Positions 23,674 to 28,565 of a stretch of DNA of 64,000 nucleotides are shown here, in pieces. The stretch is from Roseovarius autotrophicus. Lineage in GTDB: Bacteria; Pseudomonadota; Alphaproteobacteria; Rhodobacterales; Rhodobacteraceae. Below the pieces are notes generated by a model. It was not told the DNA's origin and made no database searches. It saw only the letters and a list, made by a program, of their open reading frames with translations. The position numbers and the translations under genes were made by a program. Where the stretch lies: positions 1 through 64,000 of the forward strand of contig NZ_JAGQDH010000011.1 of NCBI RefSeq assembly GCF_018069895.1. Direction: 5' to 3'. Within the stretch, counting starts at the first letter, position 1. The number at the start of each line of letters is the position of its first letter.

Positions 23674-24408
23674 CTACGCCTTCGGCCGTGCCCGTGCCGC
23701 CATCACATCGCGCCCCAGCGTGAGCGTATAGGCCTCCAGCTCCGACAGTGCCGCCTGCGCCGCCTCGGCCTCGTGGCGCTCCAGCGCATCCGCGATGCGG
23801 GTGTGAAAGCCGACGATGGCCCCGCGCGACCGCGCCGTGAAGGTGATCATGTTCATCAGCGGCTGCATCGCCTCGACTGCGCCCGCCAACTGGTAGGACA
23901 GAACCGGGTTCCCGGCGCTGTCCACCAAAGCCCGGTGAAAGGCCACGTCCGAGGCGCAGAACGCCTCATCGGTCAGCCCCGGCTGTGCCTGCCGGTGGAT
24001 TTCCGCGCGCATGGTCGCCAGCGTGTCGGGCGTGCGCCGCTCTGCCGCCAGCGGCGTGCAGGCACGCTCCAGCGCATAGCGCGCCTCGCAGGCGACATCG
24101 AAGCTGATCGCGTTCATGCTGAGGAGTAGCGTGGCGGTTGTGATCTGCTGGCCATACGCCTCGGGGTAGCTGAGGCGGTTGACAAACGCCCCGCCAAAGG
24201 CCCCGCGCTGCGTGCGGATCAGCGATTGCGCCGCCAGACGTTTGAGCGCCTCGCGCACCGTGGGGCGCGAGACGGAGAAGTGATCGGCCAGTTCCGCCTC
24301 TGACGGCAGGCGTTCATCGACGATGAGCTTGCCCGAGACAATCGCATCGCGGATTGCCCCGGCGATCTGGGCCGAAAGGTCGGCTTTGTTATGCGGATCA
24401 ATTTTCAT
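23674..24408 (-). CDS. GntR-family regulator, FadR/FCD subgroup
   Basis: 244 residues. A winged HTH (LSAQIAGAIRDAIVSGKLIV, then LPSEAELADHFSVSRPTVREALKRL) is followed by a helical FCD ligand domain (about 95-235) with the metal/ligand histidines in DVAFHRALVDSAGNPV and VGFHTRIADALERH. It is divergent from the DUF2182-DUF1326-dmdA-acuI operon, and a matching GntR operator lies between the two starts. In Ruegeria pomeroyi a GntR regulator adjoins dmdA-acuI, so this is the probable DMSP/acrylate-responsive regulator. The ATG at 24408 is used; codons upstream run through the operator. Confidence 0.88.
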   Translation of the reverse strand: MKIDPHNKADLSAQIAGAIRDAIVSGKLIVDERLPSEAELADHFSVSRPTVREALKRLAAQSLIRTQRGAFGGAFVNRLSYPEAYGQQITTATLLLSMNAISFDVACEARYALERACTPLAAERRTPDTLATMRAEIHRQAQPGLTDEAFCASDVAFHRALVDSAGNPVLSYQLAGAVEAMQPLMNMITFTARSRGAIVGFHTRIADALERHEAEAAQAALSELEAYTLTLGRDVMAARARPKA

Positions 24409-24434
24409 TTGTCTTACATTTAAATGTCTGACAA
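24409..24434. promoter_or_regulatory. Paired GntR/FadR-type operator
   Basis: Two sites, TTGTCTTACA and TGTCTGACAA, lie back to back around ATTTAAAT, making a 26-bp dyad with two mismatched pairs. Each fits the FadR-subfamily consensus TnGTC-NN-ACnA. The dyad abuts the ATG of the GntR gene and lies 36 bp before the DUF2182 start, so one bound complex could repress both directions. Confidence 0.75.
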
Positions 24435-24469: not shown

Positions 24470-25228
24470 ATGATTGCGGCACAGGTCAGGCGGATGGGCG
24501 GGGGGCACTGGCTGGTGCTGTTCGGCCTCATTCTCGGGGCCTGGGGGGTGCTCTATGCCATGGCGCTGCCGCAGGATCTGCGCGACGGCGCGGTGATCTT
24601 TGGGGCCGATTTCCTGCAAAGCCTGTGTATCGTGACGCCCGATGCCGCCGGGTTTGGCCGGATTGTCCTGATGTGGGCGCTGATGTCGGCGGCGATGATG
24701 GCGCCCACCGCGCTCCCGGCCTTTGCCACCTATGAGGAGTTGAGCCACACCGGCGAGACGCGGTTCGGCGCGCTGGTGGCGGGGTATCTGGGCGTCTGGC
24801 TGGGGTTTTCCGTGTTGGCGGCGGGCGCGCAGATGGCGCTGTTTCAGGCGGGGTTGCTGACGGCCTTTGGCGATAGCCGCTCTGGCGTGCTGTCGGCGGT
24901 TTTGCTGGCGGTGGCGGGGGCCTATCAGTTCAGCCCGGTCAAGGAGGCGTGCCTGTCAAAGTGCCGCCGCCCGCTGTCGTTCTTCATGCAGCATTGGGAT
25001 GAGGGCGCGCTGCGCAATGGCCTGCGGCTGGGCCTCGTCTGTCTGGGCTGCTGCTGGGCGCTGATGGCGCTGGCCTTTGTGGGCGGGGTGATGAACCTTG
25101 CCTTCATGGGGCTGGCCACGGTGATCATGGTTCTGGAAAAACTGCCCAACCTCGGGCGCTGGCTGACACGTCCCCTGGGCGTCGGGCTGCTGGCCGCGTC
25201 GGTCTGGGTTCTGTTCACGTCAATCTGA
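24470..25228 (+). CDS. DUF2182 integral membrane protein
   Basis: 252 residues with about six membrane segments. Family motifs are MWALMSAAMMAPTALPAFA, GAYQFSPVKEACLSKCRRPL, LGLVCLGCCWALMALAFVGG and MNLAFMGLATVIMVLEKLPN; the paired cysteines (CLSKC and CLGCC) and methionines led to its description as a predicted metal-binding membrane protein. No biochemical role is established. It is the first gene of the operon leading to dmdA, 15 bp before DUF1326. ATG 24470 is taken as start; a GTG at 24449 in frame is the alternative. Confidence 0.8.
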   Translation: MIAAQVRRMGGGHWLVLFGLILGAWGVLYAMALPQDLRDGAVIFGADFLQSLCIVTPDAAGFGRIVLMWALMSAAMMAPTALPAFATYEELSHTGETRFGALVAGYLGVWLGFSVLAAGAQMALFQAGLLTAFGDSRSGVLSAVLLAVAGAYQFSPVKEACLSKCRRPLSFFMQHWDEGALRNGLRLGLVCLGCCWALMALAFVGGVMNLAFMGLATVIMVLEKLPNLGRWLTRPLGVGLLAASVWVLFTSI

Positions 25229-25243
25229 GAGAGGAGACCGGAA

Positions 25244-25873
25244 ATGGCATTGGATACAGTGGGCACGGTGCCCTGGGCGATCAAGGGGGAGTTGATCCTC
25301 AACTGCAACTGCACGGTGTTCTGCCCCTGCGTGGTGTCTTTGGGCAAACACGCGCCGACCGAGGGCTATTGTCAGGCCTGGTCGGGGGTGCGCATCGACG
25401 AGGGCCATTATGGCGACGAGGACCTGAGCGGCCTCAACGTGGGTCTGATGCTGGAAATCCCCGGCCTGATGGCGCGCGGCAACTGGAAGGCGGCGGCCTT
25501 TATCGACGAGCGCGCGAGCGAGGCGGGGTATGAGGCGCTGGTCAATATTTTCTCGGGCAAGGCACGCGGCACCACCGGCCTTTTCGGGGTGCTGGTCAGC
25601 GAATTTCTCGGCGCCGAACGCGCGCCGGTCATTTTCGAGACCGAAGGCAATGCGCGCCGCCTGATGGTGGGCAAGAAGATCCAGGGCGAGGTGGTGCCGG
25701 TGCCGGGCCATCAGGGTCAGGATATCGTTGTCACCAATACCGAATACTGGATGGGGCCGGATATCACCGTGGCCACCGCCACCAAGGGCCGCGTGCGCGC
25801 CTTTGGCCGGGTCTGGGATTTCGACGGGCGCAGCGCGGAAATCTGTCAGATCGACTGGAAAGGTCCGCGCTGA
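25244..25873 (+). CDS. DUF1326 domain protein
   Basis: 209 residues, soluble. The N-terminal signature NCNCTVFCPC (about residues 21-30) offers four closely spaced cysteines suited to metal or thiol chemistry, followed by a compact beta-rich domain (GNWKAAAFIDERASEAGYEA, FSGKARGTTGLFGVLVSEFL). DUF1326 genes commonly accompany DUF2182 genes, as here. GAGAGGAGA lies before the ATG. Its TGA overlaps the dmdA ATG by one base, so it is translationally coupled to DMSP demethylase. Function unknown; a metal or C1/sulfur-handling role linked to DMSP use is conjecture. Confidence 0.8.
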   Translation: MALDTVGTVPWAIKGELILNCNCTVFCPCVVSLGKHAPTEGYCQAWSGVRIDEGHYGDEDLSGLNVGLMLEIPGLMARGNWKAAAFIDERASEAGYEALVNIFSGKARGTTGLFGVLVSEFLGAERAPVIFETEGNARRLMVGKKIQGEVVPVPGHQGQDIVVTNTEYWMGPDITVATATKGRVRAFGRVWDFDGRSAEICQIDWKGPR

Positions 25874-26979
25874 TGGTGGCCTTGTCCCTGTCGCGCCGGT
25901 TGCGCCGCACGCCGTTTTCCCAAGGGGTCGAGGCGGCGGGGGTCAAGGCCTATACGGTGTATAACCACATGCTGCTGTCCACGGTTTTTCGCTCCGTTGA
26001 GGAGGATTACCGCCACCTCAAGGAGGCGGTGCAGGTCTGGGATGTCGCCTGTGAGCGGCAGGTGGAATTGCGCGGGCCGGATGCGGGGCGGCTGATGCAG
26101 ATGCTCACCCCGCGCGACCTGCGCGGCATGACGCCGGGCCAGTGTTTCTATGTGCCCATCGTCGATGAGACCGGCGGCATGCTCAACGATCCGGTGGCGG
26201 TCAAGCTGGCCGAGGATCGCTGGTGGATTTCGATTGCGGATTCGGACCTGCTCTATTGGGTCAAGGGGATCGCGCAGGGCTGGCGGCTGGATGTGCTGGT
26301 GGATGAGCCGGATGTGAGCCCGCTGGCGGTGCAGGGCCCGCGCGCCGACGATCTGATGGCGGCGGTGTTTGGCGACAAGGTGCGCGATGTACGGTTCTTT
26401 CGCTTTGGGCATTTCGATTTTCAGGGCCGGGATATGGTGATCGCGCGCTCGGGCTATTCCAAACAGGGCGGGTTCGAGATCTATGTCGAGGGGTCCGATC
26501 TGGGCATGCCGCTGTGGCATGCGCTGATGGAGGCCGGGAAGCAGTGGGACGTGCGCGCCGGATGCCCCAACCTGATCGAGCGGATCGAGGGCGGATTGCT
26601 GAGCTATGGCAATGACATGACCGACGACAACACGCCGCATGAATGCGGGCTGGGGCGGTTCTGCAACACCCATACGGCGATTGGTTGTATCGGGCGGGAT
26701 GCGCTCTTGCGGGTGGCCAAGGAAGGGCCGGTACAGCAGATCCGCGCCATCGCCATCGAGGGCGCGCCGGTGCCGCCCTGCCGCGACTGGTGGCCGGTTC
26801 TGACGGACAAGGGCGCGCGCGTGGGCCGGATCAGTTCGGCGGCATGGTCGCCGGATTTCGCCACCAACGTGGCCATCGGCATGGTGCGGATGACCCATTG
26901 GGAGGCAGGCACCGAGTTGCGCATCATCGCCCCGGATGGTGAGCGGCGCGGGGTGGTGCAGGACGGGTTCTGGGCCTGA
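25873..26979 (+). CDS. dmdA: Dimethylsulfoniopropionate demethylase
   Basis: 368 residues of the GcvT/aminomethyltransferase fold. DmdA moves a methyl group from DMSP to tetrahydrofolate, leaving methylmercaptopropionate. The N-terminus SRRLRRTPFSQGVEAAGVKA and YTVYNHMLL, with VQVWDVACERQVELRGPDAG, SPLAVQGPRADDLMA, ARSGYSKQGGFEIYVEGSDL and AGCPNLIERIEGGLLSYGND, matches the Roseobacter DmdA I remember and differs from GcvT (also in this window). The acuI gene downstream and GntR gene upstream are the classical context. AAAGG precedes the ATG. The fit is strong, though DmdA-like paralogues of other function exist. Confidence 0.87.
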   Translation: MVALSLSRRLRRTPFSQGVEAAGVKAYTVYNHMLLSTVFRSVEEDYRHLKEAVQVWDVACERQVELRGPDAGRLMQMLTPRDLRGMTPGQCFYVPIVDETGGMLNDPVAVKLAEDRWWISIADSDLLYWVKGIAQGWRLDVLVDEPDVSPLAVQGPRADDLMAAVFGDKVRDVRFFRFGHFDFQGRDMVIARSGYSKQGGFEIYVEGSDLGMPLWHALMEAGKQWDVRAGCPNLIERIEGGLLSYGNDMTDDNTPHECGLGRFCNTHTAIGCIGRDALLRVAKEGPVQQIRAIAIEGAPVPPCRDWWPVLTDKGARVGRISSAAWSPDFATNVAIGMVRMTHWEAGTELRIIAPDGERRGVVQDGFWA

Positions 26980-26983
26980 ATGC

Positions 26984-27038
26984 GGGAGTGAGGGGCCAGC
27001 CCCTCACACTCCCCGGAGTATTTCTGGAACGATGAAGC
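26984..27038 (+). repeat. Intercistronic hairpin plus conserved 24-nt box (copy 1)
   Basis: Just after the dmdA stop an imperfect hairpin (GTGAGGGG / CCCCTCAC with a GGGA/TCCC extension) is followed at 27015-27038 by a 24-nt box beginning GGAGTATTTCTGGAACGATG. The same arrangement with a 22/24 identical box lies between gcvH and gcvP. Both copies are inside operons, oriented with transcription, between a stop codon and the next gene's ribosome site. Confidence 0.7.
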
Positions 27039-27073
27039 AGGGGGCTGGCCCTGCGAGGGAAAAGGAGAGCGAT

Positions 27074-28066
27074 ATGTTCAACGCATTGGTCGTCGAGAAG
27101 GACGAAGAGAGCGGCAAGACATCTGCCTCGGTCAAACAGATTTCCGTGGGCGATCTGCCCGAGGCGGAGGTGCTCGTCTCGGTCGAGTATTCCACGGTGA
27201 ATTACAAGGACGGGCTGTGCATCGGGCCGGGGGGCGGATTGGTCCGCAAATATCCGCATGTGCCGGGGATCGATTTCGCCGGAACCGTCGAGAAAAGCAG
27301 CGACGAGCGCTACAAGCCCGGCGACAAGGTGGTTCTGACCGGCTGGCGCGTGGGCGAGGCGCATTGGGGTGGTTATGCGCAAAAAGCGCGGGTCAAGGCC
27401 GACTGGCTGGTGCCGCTGCCCGGAGGTCTGAGCACACGCCAGGCCATGGCCGTGGGCACGGCTGGCTTTACCGCCATGCTGGCGGTGATGGCGCTGGAGG
27501 ATCACGGGCTCAGGCCGGGGCACGGCCCGGTGCTGGTGACGGGGGCCGCAGGCGGCGTGGGCAGCGTGGCCACCGCGCTCCTGGCCGCGCTCGGGCATGA
27601 GGTGGCCGCCGTGACGGGCCGCCCAGAGACCGCCGATTATCTGCGCGGGCTGGGGGCCACGCAGATCGTGCCGCGCGAGGAGTTGAACGAGACGGTGAAG
27701 CGCCCGCTGGAAAGCGAGACCTGGGCGGGCTGTGTCGATGCCGTGGGCGGCGCGATGCTGGCGCGGGTTCTGGGCCAGATGAAATATGGTGCAAGCGTTG
27801 CCGCCGTGGGGCTGGCGGGGGGCGCGGGCCTGCCGGCGACGGTCATTCCGTTCCTGTTGCGCGGGGTCAACCTGCTGGGTGTCGACAGCGTGTTGCAGCC
27901 ATATGCCAATCGCCTTCGCGCCTGGGAGCGGATCGCGCGCGACCTGCCCATGGACAAGTTGGAGGCGATGATCGTGCCCGCCACGCTAGACGACCTGCCC
28001 CGGCTCGGCGCGGAGATCCTAAAGGGCCAGGTGCGCGGCCGCGTGGTGGTGGATGTGAATGGATGA
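27074..28066 (+). CDS. acuI: Acrylyl-CoA reductase AcuI
   Basis: 330 residues of the medium-chain dehydrogenase/reductase superfamily without structural zinc. Signature stretches are VEYSTVNYKDGLCIGPGGGL, YPHVPGIDFAGTVEKS, the NADPH loop VTGAAGGVGSVATALLAALG, and LRGVNLLGVDSVLQPYANR. AcuI reduces acryloyl-CoA, from DMSP-derived acrylate, to propionyl-CoA and so detoxifies it. AAAGGAGAG precedes the ATG at 27074. It follows dmdA in one operon, the arrangement in Ruegeria pomeroyi, and overlaps the next gene by 8 bp. Confidence 0.9.
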   Translation: MFNALVVEKDEESGKTSASVKQISVGDLPEAEVLVSVEYSTVNYKDGLCIGPGGGLVRKYPHVPGIDFAGTVEKSSDERYKPGDKVVLTGWRVGEAHWGGYAQKARVKADWLVPLPGGLSTRQAMAVGTAGFTAMLAVMALEDHGLRPGHGPVLVTGAAGGVGSVATALLAALGHEVAAVTGRPETADYLRGLGATQIVPREELNETVKRPLESETWAGCVDAVGGAMLARVLGQMKYGASVAAVGLAGGAGLPATVIPFLLRGVNLLGVDSVLQPYANRLRAWERIARDLPMDKLEAMIVPATLDDLPRLGAEILKGQVRGRVVVDVNG

Positions 28067-28565
28067 CCTCTCGATCCGGCTGGCGCGCGCGGACGATTTC
28101 GACGCGCTCTGGCCGATCCTGCGCACGGTGATCCGCGCGGGCGACACCTATACGATCGACCAGAGCCTCAGCGCCGAGGCGGTGCGCACGCTCTGGATGG
28201 AGGCCCCGCGCGCCACCTTTGTCGCCGAGGTGGGGGGCGAGGTGGTTGGCACCTCATACATCAAGACGAACCAGTCAGGCGGCGGCGCGCATGTGTGCAA
28301 CGCGGGATTCATGGTGGCCGAAGCAGCGCGCGGGCGCGGGGTGGCGCGGCGCATGTGCGAACACGCGCAGACGCAAGCACGCGCCATGGGCTATCTGGCG
28401 ATGCAGTTCAATTTTGTCGTCGGCACCAATGAAGGGGCCATCGCACTCTGGCAAAGCCTCGGGTTCAACACGGTGGGCCGCCTGCCGCGCGCCTTTTGCC
28501 ACCCGAAAGCGGGGCTGGTGGATGCGCTGGTGATGTACAAATGGCTGGGCGCAACCGGAGATTGA
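28059..28565 (+). CDS. GNAT-family N-acetyltransferase
   Basis: 168 residues with a complete GNAT fold: an N-terminal IRLARADDFDALWPILRTVI, the acetyl-CoA binding motif A NAGFMVAEAARGRGVARRMC and motif B region FNFVVGTNEGAIALWQSLGF. The substrate is not predictable. The 8-bp overlap with acuI places it in the DMSP operon, although a functional tie is unproven. Confidence 0.82.
   Translation: MDDLSIRLARADDFDALWPILRTVIRAGDTYTIDQSLSAEAVRTLWMEAPRATFVAEVGGEVVGTSYIKTNQSGGGAHVCNAGFMVAEAARGRGVARRMCEHAQTQARAMGYLAMQFNFVVGTNEGAIALWQSLGFNTVGRLPRAFCHPKAGLVDALVMYKWLGATGD

Follow-up and report, generated by a model that had tools for sequence, protein, structure and literature searches.

A copper chaperone named PpoB2 (COG5486, PF09948) serves the tyrosinase PpoB1 of Marinomonas mediterranea, as far as the available part of its description goes. 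In Ruegeria pomeroyi, both acrylate and dimethylsulfoniopropionate (DMSP) induce the dmdA-acuI operon, according to the accessible part of a report on it (PMC3338564), and the corresponding part of another report describes MtoX as a methanethiol oxidase that needs copper and whose gene is often accompanied by one for a separate SCO1-type copper chaperone (PMC5739008). Here we analyzed a stretch of 64,000 nucleotides from Roseovarius autotrophicus (contig NZ_JAGQDH010000011.1, positions 1 to 64,000; hereafter the window), in which the genes of a DUF2182 protein and a DUF1326 protein precede dmdA and acuI in one operon. Our reading, to which we give a probability of roughly 0.4, is that this pair is a Cu(I) or soft-metal module of the dmdA-acuI slot, which would balance copper and thiols during DMSP and acrylate breakdown.

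The four genes are on the forward strand. The DUF2182 gene (24470-25228) matched PF09948 over profile positions 1-188 of 188 (210.1 bits, E 3.7e-62, cut-off 28.7), and the DUF1326 gene (25244-25873) matched PF07040 (174.7 bits, E 2.6e-51, cut-off 25); its product is 98% identical to the DUF1326 protein of Roseovarius mucosus DSM 17069. The next gene, dmdA (25873-26979), encodes the DMSP demethylase according to the NCBIfam equivalog NF009133 (680.6 bits, cut-off 410). The following gene, acuI (27074-28066), belongs to the acrylyl-CoA reductase family; it passed the subfamily model TIGR02823 (452.3 bits, cut-off 297.25) and scored just below the AcuI equivalog NF051456 (428.9 bits, cut-off 440), which was reached by only 37 genomes in our family-wide sample of 295 genomes from 294 genera. 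An earlier note made from the letters of the window had placed DUF2182, DUF1326, dmdA, acuI and a GNAT gene behind one operator-like site, and all of them were found there. The overlap it described was also borne out by the sequence, as base 25873 is common to the stop codon of DUF1326 (25871-25873) and the ATG of dmdA.

To describe the distribution of these genes, the 295 genomes were searched, and DUF1326 was present in 151, DUF2182 in 156 and dmdA in 125 of them. The DUF1326 matches comprised 150 listed and 21 more (16 further genomes, five with second copies), and the number of second copies is a lower bound. All 151 genomes with DUF1326 also had DUF2182 and 151 of the 156 genomes with DUF2182 had DUF1326, leaving five with DUF2182 alone; from this near-obligate co-presence, the pair behaves as one unit. 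Both dmdA and DUF1326 occurred in 106 genomes, dmdA alone in 19, DUF1326 alone in 45 and neither in 125 (Fisher p 2e-24, kinship between genera uncorrected). Of the 125 genomes with dmdA, 99 have DUF1326 upstream of it, on the same strand and no more than 3.5 kb away, sometimes with a gene between; the 150 listed matches alone accounted for 91 of these genomes. The earlier note had seen this adjacency in one place and had allowed that it might occur only here; the counts clearly speak otherwise, and the linkage of the pair with the dmdA-acuI slot is conserved across the family.

The properties of the two proteins agree with metal handling. DUF2182 is a membrane protein with about five hydrophobic segments in the hydropathy profile, and its MWxxMxxxMM, CxxxC and CxGCC-type residues are invariant; among 26 proteins, the distant lineage described below included, these are M68, M72, M76, M77, C161, C165, C191, C194, C195 and M199. 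C161 was nearly invariant in an alignment of 68 sequences. DUF1326 is predicted to be soluble, with no segment above the hydropathy threshold, and the CxCxxxCPC residues (C21, C23, C27 and C29) and C43 are invariant in 38 proteins, again including the distant lineage. The motifs CLSKC, CLGCC and NCNCTVFCPC, to which the earlier note had drawn attention, are real, with cysteines that do not vary in the 26- and 38-sequence alignments. That note had also held DUF2182 to be a family of no established function, which no longer applies, since PF09948 is named PpoB2, copper chaperone, in the Pfam copy that was used. The Met and Cys residues in the membrane segments of DUF2182 would suit Cu(I), and the family and the motifs together make it likely that the module handles copper. 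The proposal of metal or thiol handling in the earlier note fits these proteins on the metal side, by the invariant Cys and Met residues and the homology to PpoB2, while the tie to methanethiol found no support. Our literature search returned no paper naming DUF2182 or DUF1326 and one naming COG5486, and the titles and abstract openings of the operon literature contain no mention of the DUF2182-DUF1326 pair.

The pair was also found where dmdA is missing. DUF1326 genomes with dmdA absent (45) or non-adjacent (7) amounted to 52, with 56 copies, and the gene order was determined for 40 of these copies. Among the 52 genomes, 27 had acuI after DUF1326 in the same orientation and at most 3.5 kb away; 25 of them have no dmdA, and the other two (G001 and G128) have dmdA elsewhere and the pair with acuI. 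The 29 copies not followed by acuI consisted of 16 in the reversed order (DUF1326-DUF2182), four in the order of the window and nine whose order was not determined; in two of the four, acuI lay on the opposite strand at a distance of about 2 kb, and one was at a contig end. When 20 dmdA-linked and 20 unlinked loci were hand-picked for long contigs, the unlinked set excluding reversed pairs, acuI was in the cluster at 18 of the 20 loci in each set. No dmdA match above 40% identity was detected at 16 of 80 named loci, a set that consists of the loci matching the window best and is not evenly sampled. Two loci have remnants of dmdA, flanked on one side by the pair and on the other by a full-length acuI match: pieces within residues 179-229 in a metagenome-assembled genome (L099, 2915-3096), and the first 56 residues only in L137 (6142-6309). 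These remnants suggest that dmdA can decay while the pair and acuI persist. Conversely, at two loci (L044 and L046) dmdA accompanies the pair and the cluster has no acuI, which is on other contigs, and this argues against a pure link to acuI; four more (L104, L110, L112 and L123) have the pair and dmdA without acuI at the locus. The pair had been proposed as an accessory of DMSP breakdown. Its conservation in the dmdA-acuI operon agrees with this, but no specific tie to demethylation or methanethiol appeared, because the pair sits with acuI in the 25 genomes lacking dmdA, in G001 and G128, and at the two loci with remnants.

The 25 dmdA-less genomes with the pair and acuI also speak for a different function, in which the pair, often with a DinB neighbour, would guard thiols from acrylate or acryloyl-CoA, the metal being a cofactor and not the cargo. 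A DinB-superfamily gene was present in 50 of 121 cluster loci, mostly right after DUF1326, and one of these genes (L064, 6749-7264) also matched a mycothiol-S-transferase model (E 5.9e-07); AcuI itself protects against acrylate, as stated in the accessible part of the R. pomeroyi report (PMC3338564). However, the precedent of PpoB2 concerns copper rather than thiol chemistry, a DinB gene is missing from the operon of the window, and the acrylate-making cupin lyases were neither clearly enriched with the pair nor found in the R. autotrophicus genome, so that we regard this function as unlikely. A BCCT transporter gene follows acuI in a number of loci, and from the DinB and BCCT neighbours both thiol chemistry and DMSP uptake were kept in view.

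The cupin DMSP lyase (PF16867, E ≤ 1e-10, weak matches included) was rejected as a client of the pair: it was present in 20 of the 45 dmdA-less DUF1326 genomes versus 13 of 34, the latter being those tested of the 125 genomes with neither dmdA nor DUF1326. Among the 25 dmdA-less genomes with the pair before acuI, 12 have a cupin lyase. None was found in the R. autotrophicus genome. The test covered cupin lyases and not DddP or other non-cupin lyases. The presence of a DmdB-type ligase in the cluster was rejected as well. The AMP-binding enzymes of L044 and L216 fit PRK08162 (760.3 and 834.5 bits, cut-off 677) and fail the 3-(methylthio)propionyl-CoA ligase model (295.7 and 309.3 bits, cut-off 822), and were therefore not called DmdB.

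Delivery of copper by the pair to MtoX, which removes the methanethiol made downstream of DmdA, is another candidate role, and the copper requirement of MtoX fits it. SBP56, the MtoX family, was present in 98 of the 295 genomes and more often with dmdA (74 of 125 genomes versus 24 of the 170 others). In G043 about 1.1 kb separates its gene from the pair, and in G240 about 4 kb; in G066, a genome without the pair, it immediately follows dmdA. SBP56 was weakly associated with DUF1326 in dmdA-less genomes (11/34/13/112, p 0.03), but the two were independent within dmdA genomes (64/42/10/9, p 0.61), kinship being uncorrected in both tests, and 42 of the 106 genomes with dmdA and DUF1326 lack SBP56. 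Moreover, the available part of the MtoX report (PMC5739008) describes frequent clustering of MtoX with SCO1/SenC as the presumed chaperone, and no SBP56 match at E 1e-30 was obtained in the R. autotrophicus genome (83 contigs, 99.95% complete). The methanethiol oxidase was therefore rejected as a client in this genome, and we consider delivery to MtoX very improbable as the general role of the pair.

Upstream of the operon and divergent from it lies a gene for a GntR/FCD-family regulator (23674-24408, reverse strand; PF00392 64.1 bits, PF07729 70.9 bits), whose start was set by eye at the ATG at 24408, the profile scores coming from a version with a longer start. The 26-base palindromic operator-like site TTGTCTTACATTTAAATGTCTGACAA (24409-24434) is located between this gene and DUF2182. 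It occurs once in the window, with 0 occurrences in 100 shuffles, and at one place in the whole 3.68 Mb genome when up to 3 mismatches are allowed. We infer that GntR binds this palindrome and thereby would control the operon. The earlier note gives GntR-dmdA-acuI as the Roseobacter DMSP arrangement, and a GntR gene is presumably also the neighbour of dmdA-acuI in R. pomeroyi DSS-3. With a similar site defined as one that agrees at 16 or more of 22 fixed positions and lies no more than 400 bases from GntR (the maximum in 40 shuffled loci was 15), such a site was detected at 15 of the 20 dmdA-linked loci versus 3 of the 20 unlinked loci of the hand-picked sets, and at 5 of 8 loci with dmdA but without the pair. 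These counts indicate that the regulator and its site track dmdA more than the DUF2182-DUF1326 pair. Where present, the regulator and the site precede the pair.

To follow the evolution of the pair, pairwise protein distances were compared. The distances of DUF2182 and DUF1326 correlated with each other (r 0.66, 41 hand-picked loci), and those of DUF1326 correlated weakly with dmdA (r 0.24, 21 loci, p 0.006) and acuI (r 0.18, 37 loci, p 0.007). With all loci, the DUF1326 correlations with dmdA and acuI dropped to 0.03 and 0.05, and DUF2182 kept 0.37 and 0.39. The DUF1326 tree of 41 loci required 12 changes of dmdA linkage, the shuffled labels giving a mean of 13.9 with 94 of 500 at or below the observed number; the acuI tree required 9 changes, a number that 15 of 500 shuffles did not exceed. 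In a group of 46 rows (support 100/99), the slot's DUF1326 proteins clustered with that of L216, where the neighbour of the pair is an acyl-CoA synthetase gene, and with those of four loci from another family of the class (f10; our guess is Rhizobiaceae), apart from the reversed-order lineage. From these sequence comparisons, we read the pair as a cassette that probably stayed in its slot, with partial exchange of sequences both inside it and nearby.

Alternatively, the pair could be an accessory cassette that occupies a well-expressed slot by chance and serves copper homeostasis in general, with no relation to DMSP or acrylate. The number of dmdA-linkage changes on the DUF1326 tree, which is no better than with shuffled labels, the DUF1326 distances that barely follow dmdA, acuI or GntR, and the different surroundings of same-clade pairs in another family of the class all agree with this. 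On the other hand, the pair stands ahead of dmdA or acuI in 126 genomes, almost every one of a separate genus, the window pair comes first behind the only such operator-like site of its genome, DUF1326 overlaps dmdA by a base, and the distances of DUF2182 show a moderate correlation with those of acuI and dmdA. An unrelated cassette is rather unlikely on this evidence. A second, distant lineage of DUF1326-DUF2182 pairs in the reversed order was also observed (L072-L081, L090 and L091), sometimes with several copies per genome. One genome (G036) has five DUF1326 matches. The DUF1326 branches of this lineage are long and its exact place in the tree is unsure, and the clusters neighbouring it are common to only a few of its loci.

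We favour a copper/thiol safeguard co-expressed with DMSP-acrylate catabolism as the purpose of the module in the dmdA-acuI operon; next come the general copper cassette holding its slot and the acrylate-side thiol guard. DUF2182 (PpoB2) and DUF1326 would form a two-protein module for Cu(I) or a similar soft metal, in which DUF2182 may bind the metal by Met and Cys residues in or beside its membrane segments and DUF1326, its soluble partner, may carry or receive the metal through the CxCxxxCPC center. Where the GntR operator is present, the module would be switched on together with DMSP and acrylate catabolism. Its most likely job would be to balance copper and protein thiols against methanethiol, a copper-binding thiol, on the DmdA arm, and to keep the same balance against the thiol-reactive acrylate and acryloyl-CoA on the AcuI arm. 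The scheme predicts copper as the metal, binding between the two proteins and a protective role for them. A maturation-factor role for DmdA, AcuI or MtoX is not likely.

Several observations weigh against the pair being such a copper module and cassette of this slot. DUF2182 distances moderately follow those of acuI (r 0.40, 37 loci) and dmdA (r 0.38, 21 loci), and the cassette is therefore not fully independent of its neighbours. The same-clade f10 pairs adjoin phosphatidylcholine synthase and lack dmdA, and a distant gene (25-28%) of the medium-chain dehydrogenase/reductase type replaces acuI; in L203, L207, L211, L217, L218 and L219 the neighbour of the pair belongs to one cluster, of which the L203 member was identified as phosphatidylcholine synthase (426.1 bits, cut-off 350). 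These contexts outside the family cover 20 of 28 listed places. No solved structure matched DUF2182 or DUF1326 by sequence or profile, apart from one pilin match (E 0.38), and the operon (DUF1326, dmdA, acuI, GNAT), unlike ppoB1-ppoB2, contains no gene for a copper enzyme. Of the 125 genomes with dmdA, 19 have no DUF1326. In R. pomeroyi, the work on the dmdA-acuI operon dealt with those two genes alone, as far as the available text goes (PMC3338564). It follows from the last two points that the module is not essential to DMSP demethylation.

Other features of the locus were also recorded. The GNAT acetyltransferase gene (28059-28565, forward strand; PF00583) overlaps the end of acuI; it is carried by several named Roseovarius-like relatives, but was rejected as a core part because no blastp match was found in the 60 other loci compared. 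The gap between dmdA and acuI contains CTCCCCGGAGTATTTCTGGAACGATGAAG (27009-27037), whose core matched six places in the genome with up to 2 mismatches and whose reversed control matched none, and it therefore looks like a small dispersed repeat. The same gap folds into GC-rich hairpins without a strong excess of stability (z -1.8). At many of the slot loci L033-L071, genes for a class-V aminotransferase, a photolyase-like protein (by eye) and a cyclopropane-fatty-acid-synthase-like protein were seen 3' of acuI in many genera, and a chromate transporter gene and a ChrB-like gene recur upstream, likewise in many genera.

As a marker gene of the marine sulfur cycle, dmdA is in wide use, and in four fifths of the dmdA genomes sampled (99 of 125) it follows two genes that the texts consulted here do not mention. 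If the pair handles copper, Roseobacter-type DMSP breakdown would carry a built-in copper or thiol safeguard, and the availability of copper could shift the share of DMSP that becomes methanethiol or acrylate. It is possible, though we consider it more doubtful than not, that PpoB2-DUF1326 is a previously undescribed copper/thiol module dedicated to the Roseobacter-type DMSP-acrylate operon and linking copper handling to DMSP and acrylate turnover; copper status would then have a hidden influence on what becomes of organosulfur in the sea. DUF1326 also provides a near-obligate partner for a copper-chaperone family in which we found one studied protein, and this makes the family testable.

Compared with the known systems, the locus shares parts with each. 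The dmdA-acuI operon of R. pomeroyi DSS-3 (SPO1913-SPO1914) likewise has dmdA and then acuI, but consists of two genes in the accessible part of its description, whereas DUF2182 and DUF1326 come first in the operon here. The mtoX-SCO1/senC-mauG operon, in the part of its report that is available, resembles it in having a copper-chaperone-type gene within DMSP-linked sulfur metabolism; its chaperone is of the SCO1 family and at another locus, and MtoX was not found in the R. autotrophicus genome. The reversed-order DUF1326-DUF2182 pairs of the same family of bacteria consist of the same two Pfam families, usually adjacent, but the eight DUF1326 proteins compared are 24-29% identical to that of the window, and acuI does not follow any of the 16 copies whose order is known to be reversed. 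PpoB2 belongs to the same Pfam family as DUF2182 and is likewise an integral-membrane accessory encoded in an operon, whereas the protein described here, in an operon without a tyrosinase or other copper enzyme, is paired with DUF1326 and placed with dmdA and acuI.

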